A DNA stretch of 64,000 bases from Anastatus disparis (taxonomy: Eukaryota > Arthropoda > Insecta > Hymenoptera > Eupelmidae). The DNA lies in assembly GCA_017163975.1 (NCBI GenBank), contig JAFFSR010000015.1, positions 1,804,501-1,868,500 of the forward strand. Reading direction: 5' to 3'. Below the pieces are notes generated by a model. The model was not told the DNA's origin. It saw only the letters and a list, made by a program, of their open reading frames with translations, and searched no databases. Position numbers and translations under genes: made by a program. The first letter of the stretch is position 1. Every line of letters starts with the position of its first letter. Positions 13,346-49,193 of the stretch are shown here, piece after piece.

Positions 13346-13396
13346 TAGAGGATCCGGCACCATGGTCGAAGACCCCACCCGATCGTCAGAAAACCG

Positions 13397-25171: not shown

Positions 25172-25504
25172 TGTTACGTGGGATTCTTGATACGCACTCC
25201 TATGGGGAGTGTGAGGATGTAAAATAATTACAAGAGAATTAATATGAAGTTATCTGTTATTTATTATAAAAGTAATTACAGTGAGAGAGAGACTGATTAC
25301 TACTTCGTTCTAGCGCGTCCGGCGATGGTCTGTTTCTCGTCGTCGTCTAAAACGACGATGTAAGTTGCCCGCGACGAAGTGCCGAATCAGCACTTCGCGC
25401 ATCGTGCGACTCTTGGTCCGGAAACTCGGAGTCGCATTTCTCTGAGTTTCTACCATATTTTATATTTTATATTATAATATACGTACAATATAATGTACGT
25501 AGCA
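25172..25504 (-). repeat. 3' LTR of gypsy element 2
   Basis: 333 bp, matching 51,517-51,849 except for CCG versus CCC near its middle. On its own strand it starts TGCTACGTACATT, carries TATAAAATATAAAATA early and an AATAAA word later, and ends CACGTAACA. Confidence 0.93.
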
Positions 25505-27673
25505 CGTCCGAGGCCGCGAGGCTTCGGCCCCCGAAGCCAAGAACGTACACATGAATACAATAAAAAATATATTAAACTTAAGTCCCTAAAGTGTAATTGG
25601 TACTTTTTTGTGTACCTACACGAGCCGATGCCCGTCCTATCTTACAAAAATTTCTAACTTATTCTATTTGTTTGTGTTAGTGTTGTGTTGTTTGCGTTCT
25701 AATTTATTCTACTGTTTTATTTTTAAATATTTTTTCATTTGAACTAGGAATTTATGATCTCTCTCTTTTTTCCAAAAAGATATATGACATTTATAATAAA
25801 ATGTTTTACAAAATTGTACAAAAATTAAAATGAATTTTAAATAATTAAATAATATAGCTTTAAATACAAAATTCATTATCTTATTTTCTAATGTTAAGAG
25901 ATGTTTCTTCTGAAGATACACGTGCGCATCATGTTGCACTCTTAATAAGATAAGAAACCTTTCACATCACGAAATACATTCTTCCTCGGATGATATTTAA
26001 TTTTATTCTAAAGTGATTTAAAGAACCTTCTACTTGTTTTTGTGTGGGTTTGAAGCGGGATTCGAACGTGGATTCGAACTCCTTTTTTGTTTGTCGAACT
26101 TTTATAATAAAATTTGTACACGATTTTTCAATAATTGTATGATTTATCTGAAACAAAAACTAACTTATTAGTAGAAAAGGGTCCCCCCTCTATTTCTAAC
26201 TGATTAACCGTCATTTATCTATTTATTTTTTGATTTCCTCCTTCCTTATAAAAAAATTTTGTTACTTCTTTTTTTTTATTAAATTGATCACTGATTAATA
26301 TTCTACTGTGTATCCTCAAAGCTGCGTCTTACAAAAAACTTTACTTATTAACTCTATGTGTTCTCTTTGGCGCTTTTGTTTATCTTTTTTTTGTTAACAT
26401 TATCGTTTAAGAAGCGCTGCGTCAACTAGAATATGGCCACGGTTTCGACTACAATCAGCTTGATAATCGCCTTTTTTTTTCTAAAATTTTATTTTGCTAC
26501 CAGTATTTTTTATGCATTATTATTTTAATTTTATAAGCAATGTTATTCAACTCAAAAAACTCATTGGATTTTCATTTTACTTCTTTTTCGAACAAATTTA
26601 TAAAGGATACTTGCGTTCGATTCCCATGGGTTTTTGGAATATGTTCGGTTGTTAAGGTGATATATTTTTTTCAGATCTTAGTCCTTTAGCTAAGTTCTTA
26701 ATAATTTATAATTATTATTAATATTCAACTTCTTTTATCACGAAATTGATAACACATGCATATAATAGTTCACTGTATTTAACAGTCTTTTTTTGCTTTT
26801 TTTTCTTAACTTTTATTTCCAATTTTTTTTTCATGTTTTATTTGATTAAACTATGCATGGCATGTTGCTTTATTTACAACATAGAGAAGGTTATCTTCTC
26901 GTTATAATTTTTATGTACATTTTATTTATTCTTTTTCTTTGAACTCATGCATGTTATTACCTTATTTTTTTTATTCATTGGACTTTTATTTTCCGTAAGG
27001 AGTAAGGGGTGAAAGGATACTCATAGGGAATCTTAGGCGAGATCGTGCATTTCTTTTATAGTTGTTATTATTATTTGAGTTGCCTAACTTTTGCTAATTT
27101 TACAATTTTGTTGATAATAAAAATATTTTAATCACAATTATCCTCAAAAACAATTAGCTAATTTATTATTTTTATTTATTAGTAAAAAACGTTTCTTTTC
27201 TCTTGCGGCCAATTCTTTTGACGCTTTGCTGTACAACTGAATCTTATCTACTAATTATTTTTCTTATTTATTTTTTTGCTTTCATTCAAAAGATATTTGA
27301 TTCTTTTTTTTTTTTCACTAATACAATATTTTGTTGAAACGTCGCACCTTTAAGGATATCTTATTATTCTCATTTCTTAATTTCAACCATTATTATTAAT
27401 TTTCATTTTTTATATATTTTCTATTTTCTTCTGTAAAATAAGCAGTGATCATATGTCGTTCTTTCTTTTTCCTCGTCCGAAGGCTGCGGAAAAAGAAAAA
27501 AAATAAAGCTTTTTGCTATATCTTAATAATTTTAATTGTATTCCTTCAAAAGGAAAGAGGTTTTATGTTATACTAGTTACTCGTTGGTTTTATCTGTTTG
27601 ATTCTATTCACGTTTTTAGCATTATATTATGTTTCGCGTGGTTTATTTTTTCGATTTTAAAAGGCCCGCCGTA
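25505..27673 (-). other. 3' non-coding region of gypsy element 2
   Basis: About 2.2 kb between pol and the 3' LTR with only short, unconvincing frames on either strand. The LTR-proximal part is conserved in the diverged copy at 54,248-54,480, including a GC-rich palindrome (GGCTTCGGGGGCCGAAGCC on the minus strand) just inside the LTR. No integrase or envelope is encoded here. Confidence 0.75.
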
Positions 27674-30600
27674 TTAAACATTGTGTTTCTCTTTTCGCTC
27701 TTGCTTTAATAAATATACGGTTTCTCCTTTACGAAAATTTTTGGTATTTAATTTAACATAATTCTGCAATGGTTCCGAGGACTCGTTATCTAGTAGCTTC
27801 CAAGGTGGTTTCTCGCGCAGCGGCTTTGCATTCTTCACAAGGCAACGCTCGAGCGCATCACTTATCTTATGTGATTGACTCTTTTCTCTTTGCGCCAGTA
27901 AGTCTGTCGTAGGTGTAATAGGAGTACCTGGCTTGTTGATATTATTATCTCGTTGTTCGTTGTCGTTTTCGCTCGACGCTGTACTTTCTTCGTTTTCTTT
28001 ATTATTTTGATGTCTTTTTACTATATTATTTTTCCTTGTATAAAGGTACGGCGTAAAATGCCTTCCTTTTAAATGTAGATGAATAAAATTATTTGAACTA
28101 TTTGCCTTAAAATGGCAATATAGTGTTTCATCATAATCTGTTATAAAATGCACGCATATGTTTTGATTAAATTCACAAGAAAATATAAATACACAATCAA
28201 CATCTGCGTGTCTAGTGCGTGACGTCAAAATAGCTTCTGCTGTCTGCGGGTCTCCGCATGCTCCTAATGATATTGCATCTAATAAAATGTCTTTTAATTC
28301 ATTCGCGGACATTCCTAAATTACATACTTTAATTACTGAGTGAAAAAAGCAATTACCGTCTTTCGGTATATTGTCATCCCTTATCAAATCTAACCAGTAT
28401 TGTGCGCATTCATCACTTGCATCATATACTTCGAATACACCTGCACCATCATTAAAAGAATTACTCCAACTTATTGGTCCATTTTCGTCCTCGTTTTGTG
28501 CCGTTTCTATTATATTCATATGCTTATTTTCTTCGTCAGTTTTTTCTTCTTCTTCAAGGTCTTGCGACTCAGTCTCATCTAAATCATTTTTATCTAGCTC
28601 TACGTCACTCTCATTCTCTTCCTGCTCCATGCTTTCGTCTTGCGACTCAGATTCACTGACGTCATGCTTATCTCTCTCGCTTTCACTCTCACTTATAATT
28701 TCTTTTTCTTGATTTTTATTTGTATCTTGTACCTCAAACTCGTCCTCGAAATATGAACCTTTGTCTGTTTCACTGTCAATAATTACGACTTCAGAACTTA
28801 TTCTTAATGATTTTTTCTCTTTATCTTTTTCTAAGCTTATGTTTGGTAATAATTTGTAGTATTCTCTTGGCATTTGAGGTCGAACTTTTTCTCGTTCATT
28901 AAAATCTGTTTGATTTATTATTTCTTGAGGTACGTCGCCTCTTAGTGCTTCTGCTACTTCTCCTGGAGTTTCTTCCCATATATTTATTTGTACACCTTCT
29001 CTACCATTTATCTCTCGTTCTTGCACATCAACTAAAAATCGAGCACGCATTTTTGTTATTATTTCTGGAATCATATTTAATATACTTCCTCGGCTACTTT
29101 CTTTACTTTGCGAAGTGTGTTGTGAATCATCCTGTGTCTCCTTCTCTTTTACTATTTTGGTGCCGTTGTGTTGAGATGCTTTCGATTTTACATTTATTGT
29201 CTCTAATGGCGATTCTACATCGCAGCTGTTTCCATTATTTTTCAATATACCTTTATTTTTTGATATTTCGCTCGCTGGCTCATACGTATTCTTTTCTTTT
29301 CTTGATGACACTGCATGTGGCTTATCTACTGGTGTACTCGCTGCAAGAATTCCTTCTCGCATGTTTGTGCTTTTTCGCATATATGCGAGCTTACCGTCGT
29401 CTTGTGCTTGACTTATTATATTTTCAGCTTGAATTAATTTTTTCTTTCTATCTGCTTGACTTTTACGTGTTTTTAACGCTTTTTTATTTCGCCTTTTTCT
29501 TTTGTACGCCGATCTTTTCCAAGGGTCTTTCTTTCTTTTTGCATAATTCCAATTTTCTTCAGATCCGGTCATACTATTAATTTCTGACTCGTCACTTGTT
29601 TCTTTAATAAGGATTTTCTTTTTAGGATTATCAGAATTTTCTGAACTTGAATCTTCTTCTTTAGTTTTATTCGCATTTTTATTTATTGCGCGTGTAATCA
29701 AAATTTTTGCTGGCGAACCGCATTCGTTTGCGTTTGGTTCCTGATTTTCTTGCTTATCTGCTAATTGATACATTTCTGCACGTGGTAATTCAGGATTTTC
29801 TTCGCCATCTGCAATTACCGGATTTCTAGACAATGCATCAGCTGCATTATTTTTCCTTCCTGGTCTATATACTACATCAAACGTATATCCTCGTAAAGCT
29901 GCTTTTAATCTGTTGAATCTTAAATCAGGCTTTGTGCTCGTATGAAAATGTTTTAGTGGTTCGTGATCAGTAACTACTGTAAATTTCGTACCGTATAAAT
30001 AAGGCCTAAATTGTTCTTTTCCAAAAACTACTGCCAACAATTCTTTGTCATATACAGTATATCTAAGTTCGCTTCCTTTTAAACATCGTGAGGCATATAC
30101 ACAGGGTCGATCTTCGCCGATTTTTCCTTGGCTTAATATTGCGCCTATTGCATAATCAGACGCATCTGTTGTTACTATAAATGGCTCGCTTAAGTTAGAC
30201 GCGGCCAACACGGGCTCCTCGCATAGCTTCTCACGTAACGTGTCAAATGCTATTTGATGTTCTTCTAACCACAGAAATTTCTCTTTCTTTGAACTTAATT
30301 TATGTAACGGTCTTGCTATGCTTGCAAAATCTTTTATGAATCGACGATAATAACCAACAAAGCCTAAAAATTGCTTTACTTTCTTTTTATTTGATGGTAT
30401 AGGATAATCACGCACTGCTTCTATCTCTTTAGGGTCTGTTTTAATTTGCCCTTTTCTTACTATATGTCCTAATACCTTCGCCTCGCGTCTTAAAAATTGA
30501 CATTTCTTTGGTTCAATAGTCAAGTTTGCCCTTTCAATACGTTTTAAAAATCTCTTAAATCTTACTGCATGCTGTTCTAAATTTTCTGCATGAATTATTA

Positions 30601-32056
30601 CATCGTCTAAATAAATCTCTAATTCTGAACCTTGCAAGCCTTGTAACGCTAGAGCTATTGCTCTGCTAAAGGTCATGGGTGCTTCACATAACCCCATAGC
30701 CATACGCTTGTACTGATATGTACTCGATGGCCCTGAAAACGCAGTTTTATGTGCGTCTTTTGCATCAATTTTCACCTGATAATAGCCGTCTTTAAGGTCT
30801 ACGGCGGTGATATAATTTGCTGACGCTAAATTTTCTAAGATGTCACAAGTTAACGGCAGTGGATAGCAACTTCCCACAGTGATTTCATTTAGTTGGCGAA
30901 AATCTGTCACCAAATGCCAGCGTTTCCTGCCCTGAAGGTCAGGTTTCTTGTTAACTATCCATGCTGGGCTACTATAACTCGACATAGATGGTTCTATAAT
31001 ATCTTTTTTCAGTAACTTCTCTATTTCTTGCTGCATAATATTTTTTAATGCTATCGGATATCTGTATGGTTTCACACGTATTGGCTCCTCATGAGTCGTT
31101 TTTATTTTATGTGTTAAAATATTTGTTGCTGGGAGCAACTCATCGTCTAGACCGAAAACGAAGGGGTTCTCGGATATCAACTCTCTGACGTGCATTTTTT
31201 CTTCTTCGTTCAAATCTTCCAAGTCTAAAATACTCATTATTTTTTCAACTCTTTCTTTTATTTCACATGGAGTTTTATTTGCCATGCATCTGTCTACGTA
31301 TTTTATTTTAACATCAGCACTTTCTTTCTCTGAATTTTGTTGCGCGTACTCCGACATTGCGCGTCTAACTTTTTTGCAATCGAAAACTTCGTTTCCTTCG
31401 TGGTTGCCGTCCCCACCGGCATAAAAATTATTATCTTCTTTAATAACCTCGCATGAAAAAATTTCTACCTCTGGAGTCGGAATTTCAATATTTTTATGAT
31501 TCGTATTTATACATATTGCATACGCTCTACCATTTTTATTTTCTGTAATAAAATTTCCGAATAATATTCCAGGCCCTAAATTTTGAAGTGGCACCCAGCC
31601 TACTTCTACATCATTATTTATAACTTTTGCAGCAATAACGCGTCTCATTCTTGCGGGAATTTCCACTGTTTCCACCCGTTCAAAGGGAATCGATAATTTT
31701 ACAAAATCAATGCACTTATGTACGGCATTTATATGTCCGTTGTGCTCACTAATAGTTTCCCAGCCTAGTAGCCCATCTGTTTTTACAGGAAAGCTATCTG
31801 GGACAATATGGACCTCACACTGCAGTCCTTGAAGAGTCATATCTGCTCTTCCTAACGTATACATTTCTCCTGGTACGACGCCTATAATCTCTAAAATATG
31901 CTGCTTATCTATACTTGTATTTTCCTTTATACATTTGGCCTTTATTACGGAAATATCTGCTCCTGAATCAACATAAAATCTTGCATTATTTTCTTTTAAA
32001 TTCCGACTTTCCAGTTTAACAATAGGCGGATTACGCCCTGCGCACGCGAGTTTCAT
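27674..32056 (-). CDS. pol: Pol of gypsy element 2: protease, RT, RNase H, OTU protease; no integrase
   Basis: A single open frame of 1460 codons from the internal ATG; the frame is open further upstream and overlaps gag. Order: aspartic protease with VDSGADISV (Asp30) and LLGWETI; RT with FSRAIALALQG and active site YLDD (482-485); RNase H with TTDASDYAIGAILSQG and NNAADALSRN. Next come about 470 residues of charged, low-complexity linker with a very basic patch (KRKKDPWKRSAYKRKRRNKK) and an E/S/D-rich tract. An OTU cysteine-protease domain follows (about 1225-1340), with KDGNCFFHSV (Cys1236) and GRHFTPY (His1333), the expected catalytic pair about 97 residues apart. No HHCC or DDE integrase signature occurs. 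The last residues (FRKGETVYLL) faintly recall an integrase C-terminal fold, which is speculative. Confidence 0.92.
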   Translation of the reverse strand: MKLACAGRNPPIVKLESRNLKENNARFYVDSGADISVIKAKCIKENTSIDKQHILEIIGVVPGEMYTLGRADMTLQGLQCEVHIVPDSFPVKTDGLLGWETISEHNGHINAVHKCIDFVKLSIPFERVETVEIPARMRRVIAAKVINNDVEVGWVPLQNLGPGILFGNFITENKNGRAYAICINTNHKNIEIPTPEVEIFSCEVIKEDNNFYAGGDGNHEGNEVFDCKKVRRAMSEYAQQNSEKESADVKIKYVDRCMANKTPCEIKERVEKIMSILDLEDLNEEEKMHVRELISENPFVFGLDDELLPATNILTHKIKTTHEEPIRVKPYRYPIALKNIMQQEIEKLLKKDIIEPSMSSYSSPAWIVNKKPDLQGRKRWHLVTDFRQLNEITVGSCYPLPLTCDILENLASANYITAVDLKDGYYQVKIDAKDAHKTAFSGPSSTYQYKRMAMGLCEAPMTFSRAIALALQGLQGSELEIYLDDVIIHAENLEQHAVRFKRFLKRIERANLTIEPKKCQFLRREAKVLGHIVRKGQIKTDPKEIEAVRDYPIPSNKKKVKQFLGFVGYYRRFIKDFASIARPLHKLSSKKEKFLWLEEHQIAFDTLREKLCEEPVLAASNLSEPFIVTTDASDYAIGAILSQGKIGEDRPCVYASRCLKGSELRYTVYDKELLAVVFGKEQFRPYLYGTKFTVVTDHEPLKHFHTSTKPDLRFNRLKAALRGYTFDVVYRPGRKNNAADALSRNPVIADGEENPELPRAEMYQLADKQENQEPNANECGSPAKILITRAINKNANKTKEEDSSSENSDNPKKKILIKETSDESEINSMTGSEENWNYAKRKKDPWKRSAYKRKRRNKKALKTRKSQADRKKKLIQAENIISQAQDDGKLAYMRKSTNMREGILAASTPVDKPHAVSSRKEKNTYEPASEISKNKGILKNNGNSCDVESPLETINVKSKASQHNGTKIVKEKETQDDSQHTSQSKESSRGSILNMIPEIITKMRARFLVDVQEREINGREGVQINIWEETPGEVAEALRGDVPQEIINQTDFNEREKVRPQMPREYYKLLPNISLEKDKEKKSLRISSEVVIIDSETDKGSYFEDEFEVQDTNKNQEKEIISESESERDKHDVSESESQDESMEQEENESDVELDKNDLDETESQDLEEEEKTDEENKHMNIIETAQNEDENGPISWSNSFNDGAGVFEVYDASDECAQYWLDLIRDDNIPKDGNCFFHSVIKVCNLGMSANELKDILLDAISLGACGDPQTAEAILTSRTRHADVDCVFIFSCEFNQNICVHFITDYDETLYCHFKANSSNNFIHLHLKGRHFTPYLYTRKNNIVKRHQNNKENEESTASSENDNEQRDNNINKPGTPITPTTDLLAQREKSQSHKISDALERCLVKNAKPLREKPPWKLLDNESSEPLQNYVKLNTKNFRKGETVYLLKQERKEKHNV

Positions 32057-32121
32057 GTTTATTGTGCGTCTAATTTTTACATGCTTATTATTATTATTTA
32101 ATATATACTGATCATTATTAA

Positions 32122-32945
32122 TTAATTCCTGCCCGGCGCCTGAGGATTGCGGCGGACATCCTGCGAGTTTAAAGGCTCGTTTATTTTATCACTTTGATTA
32201 TTTTCATTTATCTTTGTGTTTGAGTCCCGCTCTCTATCCGGGCCGCGCGTTTGATTCTCGTTCCTGTTATATTGATATCTCTCACGACTGTTGTCTCTAC
32301 TACGACCTCTATTAAAACCTATATCATTTCTATTATCGTTACGTGCATAATTATTATAACGCGGCGGTCCTTGCGCATTATAATTATATTCATTATTGCG
32401 TGAGTCATAGTTTCTGTTTCTATTGAACCCACTGTTAAATCTGCTATAATTATTTCTGTAATTACTATTAGCATTCACATTGTTATAATTATTATTAGAA
32501 TTATTTCTGCCATAATTATTATCAAAATTTCTAATGTAACTATTACTATCAAAATTTCTATTGTAATTATTATTATTGAAATTTTTATAGTAATTATCAT
32601 CATTGAAATTACTTCTGCTATGATTGCCTCGCGGACCGTTCGTATAATTTTCATTATCGTTTGGCTGTTTTCTTTTACTATTATTAACATTTTGCGAATT
32701 ATTTTTATTTTGTGCATGAATAATACCATTTTCGGCATCATTTCTTAGTGTTTGACACTCTGCCGTCGCGTGCCCCATCTTATCGCAATAAGCGCATTGT
32801 ATTTTATCATATTTCTTCTTAATGCACGCGCCTTCTTTATGGCCTTCTTTATCACAATAGCTACATTTAACTGCACTTGTATCTGTTTCCATTTTTACAG
32901 GCGTAGCTTGCATTGCTTTTATTTGTGCTTCATGCACTTTATTTG
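32122..32945 (-). CDS. gag: Gag of gypsy element 2, nucleocapsid half (downstream of the Polinton)
   Basis: 271 codons, continuing in the frame of the gag half at 49,188-50,520. It has two CCHC zinc knuckles, CSYCDKEGHKEGAC and CAYCDKMGHATAEC, then a long Asn/Tyr/Arg-rich tail (NNNYNRNF-type repeats) typical of RNA-binding disordered regions. Its apparent start is not a true start; it is the Polinton insertion point. The stop (32,122-32,124) lies 43 bases past the slippery site into pol. Confidence 0.88.
32158..32173 (-). promoter_or_regulatory. -1 programmed frameshift site between gag and pol
   Basis: On the minus strand TTTAAAC (+ strand 32,167-32,173) is in the X-XXY-YYZ phase of the gag frame. 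A -1 slip leads into a frame that stays open to the pol ATG and through pol. A stem candidate, AGGAT pairing with ATCCT around a 10-base GC-rich loop, starts about five bases downstream. This is the classic arrangement for making a Gag-Pol fusion at low rate. Confidence 0.8.
32940..32945. repeat. Polinton target-site duplication, left copy
   Basis: TATTTG, matched exactly at 49,188-49,193. A 6 bp duplication is the known hallmark of Polinton integration. Confidence 0.92.
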
Positions 32946-33013
32946 AGTAGATAAGCTATAGGCATACTGGCTCAGGTTCCTTCTGGATCACCCCCTCTCT
33001 CCTCAAAGTGATC
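32946..33013 (+). repeat. Polinton terminal inverted repeat, left
   Basis: 68 bp, the reverse complement of 49,120-49,187 apart from CTGGCTCAGG versus CTGGATCAGG. Confidence 0.92.
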
Positions 33014-33014
33014 T

Positions 33015-33370
33015 AGAATGTAATGTGTGCATAAGCCCATAAGAGTATCCCCTTCTTCGAGTGATTTTTTGAATTTTGGTTTTTATTTACGCCCACCCTT
33101 TCCTGCTCCATGTGATCGAGAATGTAATGTGTGTATAAGCCCATAAGAGTATCCCTTTCTTCGAGTGATTTTTTGAATTTTGGTTTTTATTTACGCCCAC
33201 CCTTCCCTACTCCGTGTGATCGAGAATCCGATGTGTGTATAAGCACATAAGAGTATCCCCTTCTCCGTGTGATTTTTTGAATTTCAGTATTTTGTTCACG
33301 CCCACCCTTCCCTACTCCATGTGATTTAGAATCCAATATGTGTATAAACCCATAAGAGTTACCTTTTATT
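33015..33370. repeat. About 105 bp tandem repeat, 3.3 units, inside left end of Polinton
   Basis: Units start at about 33,019, 33,125, 33,229 and 33,338, each with ATGTGTGTATAAGCCCATAA, then GAGTATCCC, then TGATTTTTTGAATTT, then TTACGCCCACCC. Non-coding; position just inside the terminal repeat suggests a structural or replication role, which is inference. Confidence 0.8.
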
Positions 33371-33824
33371 GTTTGATTTGTAGGTGGCCCCATACCGTAG
33401 GGAGTCCCAAGATGTTTTTTTCTTTTGAAAGATTAATGTTTACGATTGCATGTTTTCCTTTTTTTCATCTCTATGACTTTTTTTTCTTTAAGCCACCTTC
33501 TTTCGATCGATAGATATTTTTCCTTTGGTCAAGGAATATTTTTCCTTATCTTTTACAAATAAGAGTTCTCCTTTTTTTTAAACAAGTTGAAAAAAGATAG
33601 CTGACCCTTATAATAAATTTTTTTCTCAAAAAAGATTTTCTTTCAAAAAGATAAAGACAGTATTATATCTTAAAGGTTGCATGATTCATTATTTTCATGC
33701 ACCTGCGACTCAAAAAAGAACACACAGAGTGTACTGCATTAAGAGAAAGGACATTCTTTTCCTTCTCTCCTAAAAGCAGGTTAATTATTGTGCAACGTTC
33801 AAGAAAATGCATAGTGGGCAGCGC

Positions 33825-34092
33825 TACAAAAAAAGACTCTCCATCCGCCGAAAAAACTTTATGTTTGCTAGTGACCCTTTCGCTTCCCCGCAGCGCCACT
33901 TAGTCGGCGCAATCAGTGTGCTGAAAATGGACTCTGATTACTCCAATAATCTTAATGCAAAGACTCTCCATCCACAGAAAAATTTTACGTTTGCTAGTGA
34001 CCCTTTCTCTTTCGCTTCCCCGCAGCGCCACTTAGTCGGTACAGTCAGTGTGCCAAAAACGGACTCTGATTGCTCCGATAATCTTAATGCAA
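33825..34092. repeat. About 130 bp tandem duplication in Polinton
   Basis: GACTCTCCATCC...GCTAGTGACCC...TTCCCCGCAGCGCCACTTAG...GGACTCTGATT occurs at about 33,834-33,960 and again at about 33,961-34,090. Confidence 0.75.
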
Positions 34093-34790
34093 TCGGCGCT
34101 TTACGCAATGCTGAAGGATACATGCGGCGCCTAATGTCTTTGGGTGCAGGTATACACAGAAAACCCTCGGTCTCGTCATTGTTTTACCACTGCATGTTTT
34201 TTTCTTCATCTCTATGACAGTTTCTTTAACCCACATGCTTCTGATCGATAGATATTTTCCCTTTGGTCACTTTCACATTACTTTACTATTCAAAGTCACT
34301 TTCTGCTTGTTCCGATGATCTTAATGCAATCGGCGCTTTACGCAACGCTGAAGGATACATGCGGCGCCTAATGTCTTTGAGTGCAGGTATACACAAAAAA
34401 CCCTCGGTCTCGTCATTGTTTACCACTGCATGTTTTTTCTTTTTCATCTCTATGACAGTTTATTCAACCCACATGCTTCTGATCGATAGATATTTTCCCT
34501 TTGGTCACTTTCACATTACTTTACTATTCAAAGTCACTTTCTGCTTGTTCTGATAATCTTAATGCAATCGGTGCTTTACGCAACGCTGAAGGATACATGT
34601 GGCGCCTAATGTCTTTGAGTGCAGGTATACACAGAAAACCCTCGGTCTCGTCATTGTTTTACCACTGCATGTTTTTTTCTTTTTCATCTTTATGACAGTT
34701 TCTTTAACCCACATGCTTCTGATGGATAGATATTGTCCCTTTGGTCACTTTCACATTACTTTACTATTTAAAGTCACTTGTTTTCATTTT
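34076..34790. repeat. About 237 bp tandem repeat, three units, in Polinton
   Basis: Unit starts at about 34,076, 34,314 and 34,551 with GATAATCTTAATGCAATCGG. Each includes GAAGGATACATG, CCTCGGTCTCGTCATTG and CACATGCTTCTGAT. Units are over 90% alike by eye, so the array is recent. Frames in it are not genes. Confidence 0.85.
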
Positions 34791-35226
34791 GTTGGAAAGA
34801 GACCTTTTTTTTCCTTTTCGTAAAAATATGTTTTCTTTTACTGAGAAAAGAAACTTTTTTTTGGTTTTCATGTTTATAATCTTACAATCTTTTTTCTTTC
34901 AAAATTGAAACTTTTATTGTGTCCATTCTATATCCATGTATTAAGTTAAAATAAGGTTATTAGTGAATTTTTTTATTACAGAAAAGGTTTTCTTGACAGG
35001 TTTATATTTTTGAAAGTCACCACTTATCTTATTTTATCTTTTTTTTTTTTTTTAAGAAAAAAGGTCTTTTACTCTTTTCCTAAAACGATATATCGGTCAT
35101 TTAATTTTGAAAACGAAGCCCTTTGCGAATGCATTCTTTTTAGATAGAAAAGAGGGCGTGGAAAATACTTGGAGGATTGTCAAAAAATTTTTTCCGCAGG
35201 TAGGTAATTTTTGTAAATTTTTTTTG
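34791..35226. other. T-rich non-coding segment of Polinton
   Basis: No gene; long T runs lead into the promoter at 35,227. Confidence 0.6.
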
Positions 35227-35264
35227 TATAAATACTGTGCTGCATGCAATGTTCAGTATTCAGT
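35227..35264 (+). promoter_or_regulatory. Core promoter of the spliced Polinton gene
   Basis: TATAAATA (35,227-35,234) with arthropod initiators TCAGT at 35,253-35,257 and 35,260-35,264. The initiator A is 28 and 35 bases after the start of the TATA box, the normal RNA polymerase II spacing. Confidence 0.65.
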
Positions 35265-35387
35265 CTCTCAAGCTTCCTAAAGCAAGATTGAAAAATTTAA
35301 GTTTCGATTTAAATCGTATTTAAAAAAATAAAAAATGGCAAACGGAAAAAAAACCAAGAAAACAAAACTAGTGCGAGCCTCAAAATA

Positions 35388-36319
35388 ATGAGGGATAGAA
35401 TCCAATGGTTAATGAGGAACGGCTCGTTGATCTTGTTGATGCTTGATCACGTCACATGGGCGATGGATGCAATAACATCGTGTGAGTAATATTTGATAAT
35501 TTTTTTCTTTTTTCATAATTAATAGTTTTTTATATATTATTTCAATAATTAATTATTTTTGTTTTCTTTTTTTTTAGTGCCACCGATGCCGCAGTCTGCT
35601 TCAATGCAGCAATTATATCAAGGCTTCGAAAATATGGAAACACCGAGGGCAAGCCCGAAGCGCTCGAGAAAAAGATCATCGAGCTCGAGTTCGAGTTCAA
35701 GTTCGAGTACCAGTGGAACGTCATCGAGTTGCTCTTCATGTAGAGCAACGCCCAAGAAAGTTCCCAGAGTCAACAACGAGGATGTAAGAACTCCTCTTCG
35801 AGAGAACTCGCCGCAACCAGGGCCCTCGGGTACAAGTAAGTTAAAAAAAACGAAAAAAAATATTTCATTAAAATATAAAAAGAAAAAGATTAAAATATTT
35901 ATTTTTTCTGTTTCAGGATCACAACTTCGGGAGAAGTCTCCACAACCAGGACCCTCGGGTACAAGTAAGTTGAAAAAAAACAAAAAATATTTCATTGAAA
36001 AAAAATAAAAAAAAAAAAAGTTTAAAATATTAATTTTTTTTTGAAAATAATAATTTTATCTAAATAAATAATTAATTTTTGTTTTCTTTTTTCAGAAGAG
36101 AATGGCAGCGCTACTATCCAGGAGAATAGACCTCCTCCTGCAAGACGAATCTTGCAGCTTAAACATTCAGGGAAAAAGATTGTGATGAATACAAGGCTTC
36201 CTAAGTCTAACCAGGAGAATGAGAATGCCAGGTTCCCTAAATCAACGCAGGAGGATGAGGGAACAGTTTCGTCATGCAGTGATCTCGTGATAACAGAAGA
36301 CATCACATATCTTGATTGA
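35388..36319 (+). CDS. Spliced Polinton protein of unknown function with duplicated PQPGPSGT exon
   Basis: Proposed exons 35,388-35,481, 35,578-35,835, 35,917-35,964 and 36,096-36,319. All introns are GT-AG with T-rich 3' ends and the frame stays open across all junctions to TGA 36,317. The protein (about 207 residues) has a Ser-rich tract after a basic patch (PKRSRKRSS), two PQPGPSGT motifs on the ends of exons 2 and 3, and an acidic C-terminus, so it looks disordered. A short 17-codon frame (ATG 35,335) precedes the start. AATAAA words follow. I do not recognise the family; position at the left end, alone on its strand, suggests an accessory role. Confidence 0.6.
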
Positions 36320-36747
36320 AAAATAAATTTATGTATATGTATTTTTTATGTAAATATAAAAAAGAATTTTTGTAACTGGCGGAAAAATATGTAATAAAAA
36401 TTTTAATTCAATAAAAAAAAAAATAATAATAGTTCATAAAATCTTAATCTCGCTTATTTCATGAGCCTTCCTATATATATGTAATATAATCTATTTTATA
36501 AAAAAAAATTTTTTTTCACTTAAATCAATTATTATAATTAAAAATAGTAGTTGGTTTTGGGAATATTAAATTAAATTATAATAATCATTGATAAAATTTT
36601 TATTTTTTTAAAATCACATATAATTATTTTTTTTCATTTTAGAAATACAATTATTTTTTTCATTTTAGAAATACAATTATTTTTCATTTTAGAAATACAA
36701 TTATTATAGTATTTTAATAAGATAATAATAAAAAAATTTTTTTAATT

Positions 36748-37685
36748 TTATTCATTTGCAAAATATAAACACGTACATTTCATTTTTTTGTTTTGTTTAA
36801 AATAATTATCAACCTCATCTTTATCATTAATATTTAAGTAATTTCGTAGCCATGCTCGTATAGCAATCGTATTATTAACTGCACACACGGGTCTTTTTCT
36901 TCTTATACAGAAAACGTGGTTCAAGCAGAAGTGGTGCTTATCACCTATTATTTCTTCTAATGCTGGACAGCCGAAATCTTCAACATTTGAAATTGACCTG
37001 CAAATAAAATAAACAGAATAATTAAACTATAATATAAAAGTATTAGAAAAGTATTAAAAAGTATGAAAAAAAGTATTAAAAAGTATGAAAAAAGTATTAA
37101 AAAGTATGAGAAAAGTATGAAAAAGTATAAAAAGTATAAAAAAAGTATAAAAAAGTATAAAAAAGTATAAAAAAAGTATGAAAAAGTATAAAAAAAGTAT
37201 AAAAAAGTATAAAAAAGTATAAAAAAGTATGAAAAGTATTAAGAAAATGATTATTTTGAATATAAAAAATTTAAATATATTTTTACTTACACACTTGGTA
37301 AAAGATTTTTCAACCATTGCACTTTCTGCTCTCCTTTGACAAATAATTTTTTGATTCCTTGCGAGCAGATTTGGAAAACACGTTCTAGACGATGATATGG
37401 AATATCTCCGGAATTCCATGCTATACCGTGATGGAACCTTTCCACCCACTGAGCCATGCATTTTTCTTCTGTATTTAGTTCCTCCCATGTAATTGGAGAT
37501 TTGAAAACATTGACTGTAGGTAAAGCTGTTTTTCTAAAATTGAGGAAACTAACTTCTTTGAAAATAAAAGAATCCTCTGATATTCTTTGAAATCCTTGAA
37601 TATCACATATATAAATGCTTTCTTCTTCCGCAGACTGCATGATATAATTTTTGAACAGCATATCGTAATCACGAGTTCTAGCCAT
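36748..37685 (-). CDS. DIQGF-family Polinton protein, two exons (paralogue of 48,534-49,007)
   Basis: Exon 1 37,685-37,291 and exon 2 36,997-36,748, joined by a GT-AG intron that is filled with an AAAAAGTAT minisatellite. The product is 214 residues. Motifs: CDIQGFQ near the N-terminus, FIFKEVSFL, PITWEEL, HHGIAWNSGDIPY and LFVKGEQKVQWLK. The same ordered motifs appear in the gene at the other end of the Polinton. Exon 2 adds a Cys/His-bearing tail (HHFCLNHVFCIRRKRPVCAV). I know this as a recurring insect mobile-element family of unknown activity; the D...KE pattern could be nuclease-like, but that is a guess. Confidence 0.7.
37035..37240. repeat. AAAAAGTAT minisatellite in an intron
   Basis: About twenty 9-12 bp units of AAAAAGTATAA and AAAAAGTATGA type lie within the intron of the DIQGF-family gene. 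Confidence 0.85.
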
Positions 37686-37689
37686 CTCG

Positions 37690-38188
37690 TAGCGTTGGAT
37701 GTTTCAGTATGAATTAATATCGGGAAATGAGAATAGAAAATTTTCAAATCGTAAGTTTATGTCAAGCAATTCCCCTCTTACTTTTTTAAGATTGGACGAT
37801 GGAAAATAGCTCAGTTTTCACTGGTTAAACTAAAAGATGATAGTCACTCCCCCTCTAACTTTTTAAGATTGGACGATGGAAAATCGCTCAATCCTCATTG
37901 GTTAAAACTAAGAAATGATTCTGATAGGTTAAAAAAAGGTAAAAAATTCATCCCTACCCGTGGAAAACCTCTCTTTTTCTGAAAAACTTGCACTCCGTTT
38001 TACTATTGGTTAGTTAATTGAATTTTCTATCTCTCCTTTTGTTAACTTACCTTTAAAAAGGACTGAAGGTTTCTGGATAAGCATACTTCGTCAGAGGAGT
38101 CGTGAGTGTACATAGTCATCGGGACTAAACTTTACCAATCGTGAAAGTTTGTGTTTGTGAAAGGTTATTTTAAATAAAAAGAAAAAAA
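37690..38188. promoter_or_regulatory. Divergent promoter region with 70 bp direct repeat
   Basis: The gap between the minus-strand DIQGF-family gene and PolB. TTTAAGATTGGACGATGGAA followed by AT(A/C)GCTCA occurs twice, near 37,787 and 37,860. TTTAAAAAG near 38,052 with TCAG about 39 bases on is a weak PolB promoter candidate. Confidence 0.4.
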
Positions 38189-41100
38189 ATGTCTTCAATT
38201 AATTTCTTTGAACGTCTTGGGCAACTACTCCGTGATGCTTTACAAAATGTAAATGAACTGAACAATACCGATCTCCATTATTGGATCGATATGTGCAATG
38301 GTAGTTTAGAGAAATTAAATGAAAAAATTGTCAATTCTGATCTTACAAGAGGTAAAAAGCAGAGATGTCAAACTTGTGTGTTACATCTTTCGGGTATTGA
38401 AGTTCAATTTGAACATCATCTTCAACGAGGAGGTGGTCTGCAATCTGAAGAAATAGAAGCTTCTGTTGAATGGCGAGATGTGCAGTCAGCTTTCGAAAAC
38501 AGAATTAGAACTGGCGTAGTGGTAAATATAAATCATGTGGATATTTTAAGTTTTTTAAACGACGCCCAAGAACTCTTTAAAGTACGTGTACAGTCATGCT
38601 TAGAAGAATATAGTGCTCTCAAAGTGAATTCAGATTTCACCGCAGAATTTTGTATACAGAAAAGTAGTGAAGAATTGACAGATATTAAATATTTTACAAC
38701 CACAAGTACTTCAATTTTCATGTCAACGAATCTAGAAGAATGGTTCAAAATAAATATCAAAGATTCTATTTTGACACAAATAGAAGAATTTCAGGAAAAA
38801 GATTCTGGCTGGGCTCTAAAACGCATTATAAGTCTGAGTATAAATATGAAAAAATATTCTCCGATCAAGGGCAGTTGGTACATTCCTTTACCACCTTTTA
38901 TACAAAAGAAAAAAGCATGTGTCAATGTTCGTAACAATGACAATCAATGTTTCAAGTATGCTATCCTCTCAGCAATATATCCAAGTGAAACTAATACTAA
39001 TAGAGTTAATCAATATAGCATGCATGAGAACAAGTTGAAATTTAATAACATAGAATTTCCAGTGACACTTAAAAATGTTCCAAAATTTGAAGAACTGAAT
39101 AATATTTCAGTAAATGTGTACATGTTGAAGAAGTTTGGACAAAAGTTTGAAGTATCACCTTGCCCCATTACATCGGATAAAAAGGAAAAGCATGTCAATC
39201 TACTCATCATCCAAGACTTTTACATCGATGAGTATGAAAAAGATAATCATTCTGATGATATTAGTTTACCCAAATACCACTACGTTTGGATAAAGAATAT
39301 GTCTCGTCTTCTGAAATCTCAACTATCTAAGACACATGTAAAATCATTCCATTGTGAAAGATGTTTACAAGTCTTTTATAATGAAGAAAGATTGCAAGTT
39401 CATGAAAATGATTGTAAGAATTTGAATTATTGTCGAATTAATCTACCTGACTCGCAGAACAACATTCTGAAATTTGAAGATTATTATAAAAGCGAAAAAG
39501 TTCCTTTTATTGTTTATGCTGATTTTGAATGTTTACTGAAGTCTACAATGAATGAGATTGCCTTCCAACTTCATGAAGCATATAGCATAGGATATTATAT
39601 AAAATGTAGCTTTGATGACAGCTTATCTTTTTATAAGTCATATAGAAAAAATATCGAAGATGGACAGACTCCTGCACAATGGTTTGTTCAAGAATTAAAA
39701 TCAATCAGTGAGGAAATTGATAAACTCTACAAGAATCCGAAACCATTAAAACTTACGGATTTAGAAGAATTATCTTTCCAAAGGTCAACCATTTGTCACA
39801 TATGCCGAAAACTAATCCGTGATGAAGAACTCGCAGTACGAGATCACTGTCATCTCACAGGACGGTAAGATATTAATTATAGTTATATTTCAATGAAAAA
39901 AAAATTTACTTTATCATGCAAATTTTTTTAAAATATCTATTTTTTTTTACATTAGTTTCAGAGGTGCCGCACATAATTCATGTAATTTGAATTACAAGTA
40001 TTCAAAATTTATTCCTGTGCTTTTTCATAACCTCAATTACGATACACACTTCATTTTGAAAGAGATAGCCACATCTTCATTGATGGGAGGATGAGTTACG
40101 CTATTGCCACATAATAAGGAAAAATATATTTCTTTTACAAAATACATAGATGGCAGTGACCTAAGTTTTAGATTCATAGATTCTTGGCGTTTTCTTCCTT
40201 CGTCATTAGAAAAACTTGCATCATACTTGGAAAATGTGCCGATATTGATAAAAGAGTTTCGAACTGGTGGTTTTACAGATGAGAAAATTGATTTTCTCAA
40301 ACGTAAAGGTATATTTCCATATGATTTTGTAGATGGATTGGATAAATTATTAGTTACGAAATTGCCAGAGAAAAATCAGTTTTATAACCAACTCACCGAT
40401 TCTCATATTGCTGATGAAGACTATAAGCATGCTATTCAAGTCTGGAATAAGTTCAATATAAGGACATTAGGCGAGTATTCGGATTTATACTTAAAAACAG
40501 ATGTTTTACTATTGGCGGATGTATTTGAAAGTTTTCGAGAAACATCTCTCAGAGCTTCTGGTTTATGTCCAGCTCACTTTTATACGTCTCCAGGCTTGAC
40601 ATTTTCAGCAGCGCTAAAAATGACGAAGGTAGAACTGGAGCTTCATACAGATATAGATATGTTGATGTTCATTGAAGCAGGTATTCGGGGAGGAATAAGT
40701 CAATGCTGTAATCGCTATGCCAAGGCGAACAATCCATATATGGGCTCTCCGTATGATGAAAAACAGAAAATGAAAACTTACGTACTTATGTACTTTGATA
40801 TTAATAATCTTTATGGATGAGCAATGGTTCAATATTTGCCAGTCGGAAAATTCAAATGGGTAGAATATGAGACGAATTCAAACTTTTACAACGCACCGCC
40901 AGATTCAGTTATTGGATATATTGCTGAAGTAGATTTGGAGTATCCTGAGGAAATACACGATGCACATCGAGATTTTCAATTTTGCGCAGAGCATAGTGCG
41001 CCACATGGCTCGAAACAAAAGAAACTTCTCACTACTTTGAAGAACAAGGAGAGATATGTTATTTACTATCGAACACTCAGACAAGTGTTGGAAAATGGAC

Positions 41101-42471
41101 TTCGACTGAAAAAAGTGCATAGAATTTTAAGTTTTGAGCAAAAGGCATGGCTTAAACCTTATGTGGAATTGAATACTCAAAAAAGAATGCAGGCTAAGAA
41201 CGAATTTGAAAAACTTTTTTTATAAATTGTTAATCAATGCTGTCTATGGAAAGTGCATTGAGCGAGAGCGATCTCGAGTTGATGTCCGATTGGTAAATAA
41301 ATTTACTGGTAGATATGGAGCAGAAGCACGCATAGCTCTACCAAATTTTCACAGCTGTGCTATTTTTGATGAGAATTTAGTTGCCATTCAAATGAAGAGA
41401 ACGAGCATCACAATCAAGAAACCAATTTATGTTGGATTTTGCATTTTAGAATTATCAAAAACATTAGTTTATGATTTTCATTATTCGTATAAGAAAAAGC
41501 GAGTTGGAGACAAATGCAAACTTTTGTATACTGATACTGATAGTCTCATATACGAAGTTGAGGATGTTGACATGTACAAAATAATGAAAGAGGACATACA
41601 TAAATTTGATACTTCCGATTACGAAGAAAATAATCCGTTCGAAATTCCTCGAGTTAATAAGAAAGTTCCGGGTTTGATGAAAGACGAATGTAATGGTAAG
41701 ATAATGACAGAATTTATAGGATTACGAAGCAAAATGTATAGTATTTCAATCGATGGAGGAGAAGTTATAAAGAAAGCCAAAGGTATAAAGTCCAGTGTTG
41801 TTAAAAAATCAATTACTTTTGAGGATTACCGAAGCTGTCTTCAGGATCTCACTATTATATACCGTGAACAGTGCAATATCCGTTCAAAATTGCATACTAT
41901 GCATACTGAAAAACAGAGAAAAATTGCTTTAAGTCCTCACGATGATAAGAGATTTTAATTGCCTGATAGTACAGATGCTTTACCTTGGGGACATTATAAA
42001 ATTGAAGAAATACAGATGGCGCAAGCTGCACTTGAAGTACAGAGGAAACATGCAAGAAAAATGGCTGCTGAAAAAAAAGAAAAAGAGTGGGAGGTAGAAA
42101 TGAGGAGGGGAGATACACGAGTGGAGATGGATGCTACAGAGAATGAAAGTGAGAGGGAAATCGAGAGAAGGGATGAAGCCACCAATGAAAATAGTGCAGA
42201 GCGAGTGGGGATGTCACTTTATGAAGGCGAGCAAATTATCATTGAGTATGATGTGTTAGAGGAGTTCATGAATGACTGGCATCCATCAATGGAGGGGGCA
42301 AGTTCCCAGGAAGGAGAAAAAAAGGATATATTACGAGTAGCAATGGAAAGGGCAGACATCGAAGTGGGGAATGGGCTATATCAACCAATGGACCACAATG
42401 AGGAGCGCATTCGAGTAATCGAAGAGCTTGAGGACGATCAACCTTGCACAAAGAAATCTAAAATCGACTAA
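38189..42471 (+). pseudogene. polB: Polinton protein-primed DNA polymerase B, with intron, stops and a frameshift
   Basis: Exon 1 38,189-39,864; intron 39,865-39,955 (GTAAGA...TTAG); exon 2 from 39,956. The N-terminal about 400 residues are Polinton-specific. The exonuclease motif YADFECLL has Asp445/Glu447. A CHIC...HCHL zinc cluster straddles the intron. Polymerase motif A region YFDINNLYG is near 40,796, KLLINAVYGK near 41,223 and the catalytic YTDTDSLIY near 41,527. The C-terminus is long, acidic and coiled-coil-like. Defects: TGA 40,092-40,094, TGA 40,818-40,820 directly after NLYG, a frameshift in a T run at about 41,215-41,222 and TAA 41,956-41,958. The family replicates the element by protein priming; this copy cannot make intact enzyme. 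Confidence 0.93.
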
Positions 42472-42479
42472 CTTTTTAA

Positions 42480-42582
42480 GTAAGTTACAATTTATTTTTT
42501 TTACCAAAAAACATTATTTTTTTCCATCAAAATTTTTTTCTAACAGAAATTTTTAATTTTTTTTACTTTTTCTTGTTTTCAG
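42480..42582 (+). other. Probable intron between PolB stop and the 99-residue gene
   Basis: GTAAGT at 42,480 lies nine bases after the PolB stop. TTTTCTTGTTTTCAG ends one base before the ATG at 42,584. This suggests the small gene is expressed by splicing from transcripts that begin upstream. Confidence 0.5.
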
Positions 42583-42583
42583 A

Positions 42584-42883
42584 ATGGATTTATCTGCACT
42601 AAACAAGATTGCTGGAAGCGACTTCCTGCCAAGGAAGAAAGTTACAGACTTAGAAAAAGACCAGCAGTACATGGTGACTTCACTGAAACAAGTCAAGACA
42701 AGATTTGGAACCAAGGTCGTAGCAGATTTCGACCAAAGCTTCCAAGTCTTCTTACCAGAGAAGATTTCATCTGCAATCTTAAAAGATGAAGAATTTTTCT
42801 ACAATCTCTGTGATAATGCAAATAAACTGCGTTTGATTGCAATATACCTGGGAGGATCTTCTTTTAAATTCGATCGGGCTTAA
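42584..42883 (+). CDS. Small Polinton protein, possible ssDNA-binding OB-type fold
   Basis: 99 residues and intact. It opens MDLSALNKIAGSDFLPRKKV and has YMVTSLKQVKTRFGTKVVAD and FLPEKISSAILKDEE blocks. The alternating hydrophobic strands with KTRFG and FLPEK turns resemble small OB-like proteins that I associate with insect Polintons and other replicating elements, but the assignment is inference. It follows PolB closely, with an apparent intron between, so a replication role is reasonable. AATAAATAAAAAT follows the stop. Confidence 0.6.
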   Translation: MDLSALNKIAGSDFLPRKKVTDLEKDQQYMVTSLKQVKTRFGTKVVADFDQSFQVFLPEKISSAILKDEEFFYNLCDNANKLRLIAIYLGGSSFKFDRA

Positions 42884-43163
42884 AATAAATAAAAATATAC
42901 TCGTCAAATTATTTTTCAAACTATTTATTGTAAATTGTACATAATAAGAATACATGAATAAATGAAAATTATTAAACATTATATAATTGTTTTTATTTAT
43001 CACCACCATTTATAATTATTATATTCATATTGAATCATAAAAAGAAAATTTTAATAATAAAAATATTTTATATATAACTTAAATTAATGAACATAATAAA
43101 ATTAAATTTTTTTCTTTTTTATTTATTACACTGAAATACGTGGTAAAATACATCTTAGCTTAT
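42884..43163. other. Convergent intergenic AT-rich segment
   Basis: Separates the plus-strand PolB block from the minus-strand integrase block; poly-A signal-like words on both strands and no gene. Confidence 0.5.
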
Positions 43164-44082
43164 TCAAATAATCTCATTTTTATCTATCCAACTATTATGC
43201 TTGCTATTTAGACCTAACCACTTAACATATACACGTTTACCACTTTTCTTTAAAACTTTTTCTACCAAATAAATTTCTGGATACATAGTCTTTTGAATTT
43301 CCGTTTCATAAAAGCCGCGGGAGACTGGTTCATCATAATAAGCTTTGGTAATGGTAAGTTATGGGATTGGTTTTTACAACTCTTGTTATTGTGAAAATTT
43401 CAGTTGACCAATTTGGTGTATAACCTTTTTCAAAAACTTGTTTTATCTTACTTATTCGCACTTTATCTCCTTCTTTGAATTTTGGTTTTTTTACAGGTCT
43501 TTTTTCAGTTGGGTAATTTTTCTTGATTTCTTTTTCATTTACCTTCGTAACGTTTTCAGGCTCGATTCCTATTGTCCGATGTTTTCTTGAATTGTATGCT
43601 TTCACTAACTCAGGCAGAATATCCAACCATTTATAACTTCCTTGTTTGCTGAATTCTAACCACATTGCATTTTTTAAAGTTCTATTAAAGCGTTCACATA
43701 TGCTTGCATGAAGATTACTATGTGAAGAGTAGTGATTTATCTTGTACTTTTTCATAAGATTCTGAAAGTTTGAATTGTAGAATTCTTTTCCTTGGTCAGT
43801 TTGTAAATTCGATAGCACCCGTTCTTGTTTTAATATTGACTTCATAGCTAGAGTAACATCATTGCCACTCTTCGATTTGACTGGTACAGCTCATGCATAC
43901 TTTGAAAATATATCTATGACAGTTAGTAAGTAGCGAAAACCTTTGTTTTCCTTGAAATAAGGTATCATTTCTACAAGGTCAGCTTGCCAAGTCTCATCTA
44001 ATCCGCGTATGTCATATTTTCTTCGCTTGTACCTTCGACGTGCTGGCTTGTGTAGCTCTTCAACTACTCTTTGACGTTCCAT
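43164..44082 (-). pseudogene. int: Polinton retrovirus-like integrase with C-terminal chromodomain, broken
   Basis: From ATG at 44,082 (MERQRVVEEL). The catalytic core shows ETWQADLVEM (first Asp, residue 35), LQTDQGKEF (second Asp) and SICERFNR (Glu), then an SH3-like GDKVRISKIKQVF segment. TGA at 43,891-43,893 follows FSKYA, where the family has Trp. A frame change near 43,345 separates the rest, which encodes a chromodomain (YLVEKVLKKSG, then VYVKWLGLNSKHNSW). No N-terminal zinc domain is evident. The start lies one base after the stop of the upstream fibre-like gene. It would integrate linear element DNA with 6 bp staggering. Confidence 0.92.
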
Positions 44083-44083
44083 C

Positions 44084-44473
44084 TTAAACTTCAACTTTAG
44101 CAATATCCGATCGTCTATTCATTTCTTTAATTATATATTCAATACTTGCAAAATTTCGTTGAGTCATATCATAGACATAAGATAATTTTTCGTCTATTTC
44201 TGCTTTATATATTTCAACTTTGTTCTCATATTCTTGTATAGCTTTAGCAACTTCTATAATTTTAGAAGATAAGTAATCAACTTCTTTCTGTAGGATATTA
44301 TTTAGTGAATTCAAACTAATGGCATCATTTGGATCATTAGCCTCTCCAATATTGCAAAGTCGCTTATTTTCTGAATCAAAATCACCATCTGATGTAACAT
44401 TGAATCCAATACCTCGAGGACCACGACTCACTTGCGAGCCCTCAAGTTTTCTTCCAAACACATCGAGACTCAT
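44084..44473 (-). CDS. Fibre-like Polinton protein with coiled coil
   Basis: 129 residues from MSLDVFGRKLEGSQVSRGPR; this internal ATG is preferred because the typical conserved start of the family appears there. A GPRGIGFN collagen-like turn is followed by TSDGDFDSENKRLCNI, DPNDAISLNSLNNIL and a heptad-rich C-terminus (about residues 60-125), as in trimeric virus and phage fibres. An attachment or spike role is inference from that layout. It is one base ahead of the integrase start, so the two may share a transcript. Confidence 0.65.
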   Translation of the reverse strand: MSLDVFGRKLEGSQVSRGPRGIGFNVTSDGDFDSENKRLCNIGEANDPNDAISLNSLNNILQKEVDYLSSKIIEVAKAIQEYENKVEIYKAEIDEKLSYVYDMTQRNFASIEYIIKEMNRRSDIAKVEV

Positions 44474-44504
44474 GATACTACTATTGATTTGAAAATTGTG
44501 TACG

Positions 44505-45498: not shown

Positions 45499-45541
45499 GC
45501 TGACAAGATGCTGTCTACAATCAAACTGCAAAGATTAAGAT

Positions 45542-46237: not shown

Positions 46238-46335
46238 GTTTACGTAACAAAGTCAAATCTAAGATTGACCTTTTCTAAATATAAACGCTTGTTTTATATT
46301 TTGATCATCAGTTGTAAATCAGCACTCGAAGAGAG
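46238..46335. promoter_or_regulatory. Divergent promoter gap between ATPase and capsid operon
   Basis: 98 bp between two divergent starts. TATAAACG near 46,280 and TCAGT near 46,308 could serve the plus strand, with 28 bases between them. TATATTT reads on the other strand near 46,300. Confidence 0.4.
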
Positions 46336-47223: not shown

Positions 47224-47253
47224 ATTGTATCATTCTCTGCTGCTTTCAGAAAA

Positions 47254-48495: not shown

Positions 48496-48533
48496 ATTAT
48501 CTTCACTTTTACGTAAAAAATTAATATTTCGAA

Positions 48534-49007: not shown

Positions 49008-49119
49008 GAAAAAAAGACAAAAAAAAAAAGAAAAAAAAAAGTAGTAGAAAACGCTATAGGCATTCTGGATCACTTTCGGATTCTAGATCACTGAGGTGAT
49101 CTACAATGCGTACTTTCTG

Positions 49120-49187: not shown

Positions 49188-49193
49188 TATTTG
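49188..49193. repeat. Polinton target-site duplication, right copy
   Basis: TATTTG, identical to 32,940-32,945. Confidence 0.92.

Follow-up and report, generated by a model that had tools for sequence, protein, structure and literature searches.

An OTU-like domain in Pol and a lineage without integrase in a Ty3/gypsy-type retrotransposon family of the wasp Anastatus disparis

Analysing a window of 64,000 nucleotides from the eupelmid wasp Anastatus disparis (assembly GCA_017163975.1, contig JAFFSR010000015.1, positions 1,804,501 to 1,868,500, forward strand), we found on its minus strand a long terminal repeat (LTR) retrotransposon, whose Pol carries an OTU-like segment and no complete integrase. 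With a probability of roughly 0.9, this copy belongs to an integrase-deleted, non-autonomous lineage (SHORT) of a Ty3/gypsy-type family, in which the full Pol consists of protease (PR), reverse transcriptase (RT), RNase H, a charged linker, an OTU-like domain and an integrase with H2C2, DDE and GPY/F parts, and most likely obtains its integrase from the copies retaining this full Pol (LONG). Since all four LONG copies fetched as well as the best public homologue, P0001, carry both domains, integrase and OTU were not swapped; rather, the OTU-like domain, which is strongly constrained, belongs to the ancestral make-up of Pol, and the integrase was lost by an internal deletion. What temptingly resembled a retroelement with its integrase swapped for an OTU is thereby corrected to two near-identical classes in one genome, a naturally occurring test case for the persistence of non-autonomous LTR elements which retain nearly all of Pol.

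SHORT and LONG copies in the host genome

A search of the host genome with the Pol protein of the window gave 13363 first-look candidates, among which 31 copies were scored, all 92–100% identical to the window pol; the family thus counts at least 31 members, as such numbers are lower bounds for large families. Thirteen copies (the window counted) match through residue 1503 and form the SHORT class. Another 16, the LONG type, stop matching at residues 1487–1489, are 93–95% identical over residues 1–1488 and have frames of up to 1979 codons; the remaining two end earlier (residues 1459 and 1472) and were left unclassed, one of them (C242) carrying the LONG entry tag introduced below. The 3' parts of four LONG-type copies were fetched, and all four run from the residues REKPPW into an integrase with D-35-E spacing. 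Integrase_H2C2 (E about 1e-18) and rve (E about 1e-13) were found in each of the three LONG copies scanned; a regular expression for HHCC had no match, whereas the Pfam profile Integrase_H2C2 did match these copies. The order in LONG Pol is PR-RT-RNase H-linker-OTU-integrase. Full-length relatives with an integrase, which the original prediction had named as evidence that would speak against it, therefore exist, but their integrase follows the OTU-like domain instead of standing between RNase H and OTU.

For the SHORT class, eight of the 12 scored copies other than the window (1 kb each) and four places at which the PPW-KLLDNES tag described below has two to three mismatches (2.1 kb each) were fetched. 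In all 12, as well as in the window (24500–28100 and the leader), the sole integrase match at E ≤ 0.01 within the stretches searched was the GPY/F part; a Pfam profile scan of the pol frame of the window found no integrase family at E ≤ 1. The predicted absence of HHCC and DDE from the frame, the downstream region and the leader was therefore upheld, but a GPY/F stub at 27614–27754 qualifies the statement that no integrase is present: its 47 residues are 60% identical to the family's integrase (E 1e-12). An in-frame stop (27674–27676) cuts the stub, which lies partly past the pol stop codon. Apart from this remnant, the window copy has no integrase after RNase H, where the LONG copies scanned have one. 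Numbered along the integrase, the stub runs from residue 439 or 440 to 485 in eight SHORT copies, to 472 in two (L031, L033) and to 512–516 in two others (L038, L056), and because the latter extend so far, the SHORT tail can be said to descend from an integrase end. The SHORT copies fetched have one common deletion junction. They lack an essential enzyme which relatives with the same LTR encode.

Tags of 34–35 nucleotides (nt), allowing up to three mismatches, were used to count genome places and not intact elements (reversed-pattern controls gave 0 each): the PPW-KLLDNES segment occurs at 102 places, the SHORT junction running into the stub at 108 and the LONG entry at 140. LTRs of one and the same family and target-site duplications (TSDs) of 4 bp occur in both classes, the LONG side being represented by one copy with both ends. 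The two LTRs differ at 1/333 sites in the window copy, at 0/333, 0/333 and 5/332 in three other SHORT copies and at 0/333 in the LONG one; complete TSDs are ATAG (window, reading CTAT on the plus strand), AAAT and GTGT in SHORT copies and CAAG in the LONG copy. The proposed recent movement, deduced from LTRs one base apart and a CTAT duplication, is borne out by these data, and the suggested check of TSD length across copies returned 4 bp for each complete TSD; integration with the help of another element's enzyme, likewise part of the original prediction, would fit the LTR family and TSD length found in both classes. The LTRs of one SHORT copy (C291) are nearer to those of a LONG copy (C340; 8/333) than to those of the SHORT copies C380 (18/332) or C293 (20–23/332). 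In the SHORT copy on C380 (L044), the 5' end opens with an LTR fragment joined to 3' untranslated sequence, after which a full LTR follows; ATAG is found on either outer side of this copy, which is probably an aberrant reverse-transcription product.

Outside the host, P0001 (2089 amino acids; 52% identity over 52% of the query) shows a sub-threshold protease, RT, RNase H, a long linker, an OTU-like segment (41% identity to the window over 147 residues) and then H2C2, rve and a GPF motif. The next homologue, P0002 of Trichogramma brassicae, is 51% identical over 43% of the query. Among the best 120 of 144 homologues, P0001 alone contains a GNC.[FYW] or RHFTP-type His motif. In the simplest reading of these sequences, the OTU-like domain would have been gained in the linker separating RNase H from integrase, at a time when the family and P0001 had not yet split.

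The SHORT lineage probably arose by one founder deletion, in which the integrase was lost between the end of the OTU tail (REKPPW) and the beginning of the GPY/F module. We rejected a simple deletion within the present LONG sequence, as both the stub and the junction segment of 45 nt have diverged further than the sequence on either side; because the left-over tail has diverged from present LONG copies, the founder event probably involved a diverged relative. The lineage would then have spread to about 100 copies. SHORT RNAs, having LTRs in common with LONG ones, would encode Gag, PR, RT, RNase H and the OTU-like domain themselves and receive the DDE integrase in trans from LONG copies in shared particles, with the same 4-bp TSD as the outcome, as the LTR family, the TSDs and the mosaicism described below suggest.

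Constraint and mosaicism of pol

Codons were compared among five pol frames (three SHORT, two LONG; 10 pairs), residues 1–59 and those after 1461 being left out. In all 10 pairs, the OTU-like segment combines a proportion of synonymous differences (pS) of 0.11–0.37 with a proportion of nonsynonymous differences (pN) of 0–0.0125, that is, a pN/pS of 0–0.04. In a second set, made up of the window and four LONG copies, the segment differs in nine of 10 pairs with a pN/pS of 0–0.07, the highest involving L030; for the integrase, pN/pS is about 0.14–0.23 among the four LONG copies. Such near invariance at the protein level suggests a role for deubiquitination or an additional protease when some animal retrotransposons replicate.

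The SHORT and LONG classes are mosaics of each other. The RTs of SHORT C291 and LONG C340 are separated by four nonsynonymous changes and one synonymous change (pS 0.006), their OTU-like segments by a pS of 0.26; the RTs of the window and C291, both SHORT, by a pS of 0.23. Over residues 121–1000, C291 and C340 differ at 21 of about 2640 sites, and at 11/120 in residues 1281–1320. Between the LONG copies C340 and C135, 27/120 sites differ in residues 321–360, 8/120 in 361–400 and 0 in the bins on either side. Block-like divergence of this kind, falling largely where the protein is conserved, is characteristic of recombination, or of conversion involving diverged relatives, and the mosaicism fits co-packaging of SHORT and LONG RNAs. 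Across the five copies, residues 321–360, 521–560, 721–760 and 1241–1360 stand out by high, mostly synonymous divergence amid near-identical flanks, with up to six amino-acid changes in the block 321–360; this may reflect conversion involving subfamilies which have diverged, or selection at the nucleotide level, for instance against small RNAs.

Competing explanations and the identity of the OTU-like segment

According to the original prediction, an OTU had replaced the integrase, making the element a new type of retroelement which integrates with a helper enzyme or by another route. The window copy indeed has OTU-like residues without HHCC or DDE, and the SHORT form is present at about 108 places, some copies being young; nevertheless, with OTU-like domain and integrase together in four of four fetched LONG copies and in P0001, and with the GPY/F stub of the lost integrase persisting, the exchange as such is refuted and this explanation is highly improbable. 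More weight should be given to the possibility, in our opinion doubtful yet by no means far-fetched, that SHORT copies are inert deletion products which were amplified passively, do not need their own protein and have open frames merely due to their youth. Stops within the match occur in 8/13 SHORT and 5/16 LONG-type copies, and PR, the second half of the linker and the OTU tail reach a pN/pS of 0.4–1.9 between SHORT copies, both as passive amplification would have it. Against it stand the low pN/pS values of RT, RNase H and OTU, respectively, in pairs of SHORT copies (window and C380: 0.25, 0.04, 0.02; window and C291: 0.10, 0.01, 0.04; C380 and C291: 0.14, 0.04, 0.04), although, owing to the mosaicism, this constraint may be partly inherited from LONG donor segments through recombination and is no clean test.

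Several observations also weigh against the deletion lineage with a constrained OTU-like domain that we favour. Among the 16 LONG-type copies, the sequence was followed through the integrase in only four, and the 140 LONG places count a 34-nt entry and not intact integrases. Identity between the stub and the end of the LONG integrase is only about 60%, compared with 95–98% in the flanks in most comparisons. Three of the 14 fetched ends (L042, L048, L051) gave no LTR match, which leaves, apart from the window copy, only four copies with both ends. Parts of Pol show little constraint: in the five-frame set, pN/pS of PR is 0–1.87 (≥0.67 in seven of 10 pairs), that of the second half of the linker 0.15–0.88 and that of the region after OTU 0.40–1.26. 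Finally, the identity of the OTU-like segment itself is weak by standard tests, the Pfam profile PF02338 matching neither the C-terminal region of the window Pol nor P0001.

OTU proteases are recognised by a catalytic Cys in a DGNC-type motif and a downstream His followed by an aromatic residue. The window pol contains DGNCFF and GRHF, and GNC and GRHF recur in P0001, with the D of DGNC replaced by P; the predicted signature (DGNCFF, GRHFTPY) is hence real as a motif, but the recommended profile search does not confirm it as an OTU domain. Aligned by hhalign to four OTUs from other host transposons, a two-row profile of the window and P0001 scored 31.6 (E 1.3e-4, probability 54%), and the best of 300 column shuffles 20.7; the alignment holds the Cys motif only and ends before the His motif. 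An AF2 model from the two sequences was poor (pLDDT 40). A first PDB search returned nine rows at chance level, with VP35 (E 0.66; six of the nine rows), FGF23 (E 0.67) and, third, the RNA-polymerase chain 6dx2 (E 1.2), VP35 and 6dx2 both being aligned at the DGNC site; a second search gave a single match, again at chance level, to the L-protein chain 11ns (E 1.0). The search output does not name OTU domains for 6dx2 and 11ns, which we take to be viral ones. As PF02338 fails, hhalign covers the Cys half only and the PDB matches are at chance level, we named the segment OTU-like. New relatives were sought with window residues 1250–1503 (none at E ≤ 1 among 768 candidates, in a search which missed even P0001) and with P0001 residues 1285–1425 (only P0001 itself among 191 candidates), and in a scan of IMG/VR three stretches fitted a pattern and none was confirmed.

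The failing profile, the poor model, a probability of about 50% over an alignment short of the His motif, chance-level matches to VP35 and FGF23 beside L-protein chains and the lost D in P0001 would all agree with an unrelated domain bearing a DGNC motif by chance. We nonetheless regard such an unrelated domain as unlikely, considering that the hhalign score exceeds all 300 shuffles, that the GNC and GRHFTPY blocks are kept in P0001 at the above-mentioned identity and that the segment is strongly constrained. A further-reaching proposal can be put forward tentatively, at somewhat less than even odds: a Ty3/gypsy lineage would long have carried a functional OTU-type cysteine protease in Pol, constrained more than its own integrase and acting as deubiquitinase or second Pol protease, and this enzyme would have been of enough value to be kept in an integrase-less lineage which lives off full-length copies and exchanges OTU and RT blocks with them. 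The likely task of the OTU-like domain would be a putative activity of cysteine-protease or deubiquitinase type protecting particle or Pol proteins.

The element in its window and its relation to known systems

The features of the window copy are compiled in Table 1. PR, RT, RNase H and charged linker were originally predicted to lie in one Pol frame, and the motif positions together with matches to RVT_1, RT_RNaseH and, below threshold, RVP agree with this. Affiliation with Ty3/gypsy follows from the LTR pair with TG...CA ends and short TSDs and from RT and RNase H of gypsy type, the best homologues sharing the same RT and RNase H families (family matches without a tree).

Table 1 Features of the retrotransposon copy in the window (aa residues refer to Pol; TIR, terminal inverted repeat)
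Feature	Position	Strand or length	Remarks
5' LTR	51517..51849	-	TG...CA, 333 bp; TSD ATAG at 51850-51853
Candidate primer-binding site TGGCAGCGGTGTGGGAT	51494..51510	-	inferred from sequence
gag, capsid part	49188..50529	-	448-codon frame reaching Polinton edge; sub-threshold Ty3_capsid match, E 0.004
Nested Polinton/Maverick, interrupting but foreign to the element	32946..49187	16.2 kb	TIR, TSD and frame matches
Remaining gag	32125..32945	-	two zf-C2H2_10 zinc-finger stretches and Asn-rich tail; overlaps pol in other frame
pol open frame	27677..32185	-	single frame, 1503 codons
Aspartic protease, VDSGA at 72	31730..31987	-	residues 67-152; RVP match below cut-off (0.025)
Reverse transcriptase, YLDD at 525	30458..30949	-	residues 413-576; RVT_1 5e-25
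RNase H, DASDYA at 674	29885..30271	-	residues 639-767; RT_RNaseH 4e-32
Long charged linker	28484..29803	-	residues 795-1234; no family match
OTU-like domain	28019..28483	-	residues 1235-1389; DGNC 1276-1279, GRHFTPY 1374-1380
45-nt segment at deletion junction (PPW, then KLLDNESSEPLQNYV)	27755..27799	-	common to SHORT copies fetched
Integrase stub, GPY/F part only	27614..27754	-	residues 439-485 of 516-residue integrase part of LONG copy L028
3' untranslated region	25505..27613	-	between integrase stub and 3' LTR
3' LTR	25172..25504	-	333 bp; TSD ATAG at 25168-25171

The 5' LTR is 26.7 kb distant because a Polinton, which had been missed in the original prediction and entered the copy later, splits gag; without it, the element measures about 10.4 kb by its coordinates. 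The Polinton has TIRs of 77 bp (96%) and a 6-bp TSD (CAAATA, at 49188–49193 and 32940–32945), and its frames match PolB (DNA_pol_B_2), an A32-like ATPase (Pox_A32), a PLA2-like phospholipase A2 and a double jelly-roll capsid. A sub-threshold rve-like integrase frame (43336–43890, E 0.0012) belongs to the Polinton and not to the retrotransposon, and PolB is split over several frames (38174–41958). In the 3' untranslated region, about 195 nt just below 27500 are 94–96% identical to three of four LONG copies and 77% identical to the fourth. A diverged relative (79%) of the element's 3' end and LTR is present at 53882–54452, adjoining a field of tandem repeats (54633–55660). The window further contains a second gypsy-type, errantivirus-like element (12046–17628, plus strand) with gag, protease, integrase and an envelope-like frame (Baculo_F, E 5e-6), as well as Helitron-like frames with a PIF1 helicase (56218–59816, minus strand, E 4e-37).

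A census of host OTUs by PF02338 (135 matches, the best 150 of 203 candidates being scored) pointed to Helitrons and other transposons, and none of the 26 census loci fetched (8 + 18) matched the window pol, gag or nucleocapsid. At two loci (L009, L010), which represent large transposons of another family, the frames (1754 and 1673 codons) carry an OTU motif in their N-terminal part and, going by the look of the motif, presumably a C-terminal region of Ulp1 type. Helitron-type OTU proteins are encoded at L003–L006 and L011, the OTU segment of L011 being tandemly duplicated in one frame. These Helitron/Helentron proteins resemble the segment in Pol in their DGNC motif and by weak profile similarity, but differ in their clear PF02338 matches and in protein context.

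Compared with Ty3/gypsy elements (Metaviridae), the LONG copies share the order of PR, RT, RNase H and integrase, H2C2, D-35-E, GPY/F, TG...CA LTRs and 4-bp TSDs; they differ in the long linker and OTU-like domain between RNase H and integrase, and the SHORT class in having an integrase stub only. Non-autonomous LTR elements which rely on an autonomous partner, such as BARE-2, Dasheng and LARD/TRIM, have lost gag or all coding capacity, whereas the window element retains Gag, PR, RT, RNase H and OTU. A strongly preserved OTU-like domain is unusual in a Ty3/gypsy-type element, and in the part of the open-access PMC literature covered by our searches, no OTU in a Ty3/gypsy Pol was found reported. 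The Athila family of Arabidopsis is reported to comprise non-autonomous lineages with intact frames under purifying selection and recombination between lineages (PMC2410132); it is a plant family, whereas here only the integrase is missing and the partner class is near identical elsewhere. Ginger1 DNA transposons are reported to combine a gypsy-type integrase with GPY/F and an OTU in one protein (PMC2836005), but they move by cut-and-paste, their OTU follows the integrase, and RT and LTRs are not part of them, the comparison being one of domain content only. Non-autonomous LTR lineages under selection and the combination of integrase with OTU are thus known from Athila and Ginger1, respectively; judged by the searches made, an OTU-like domain in a Ty3/gypsy Pol would be new.

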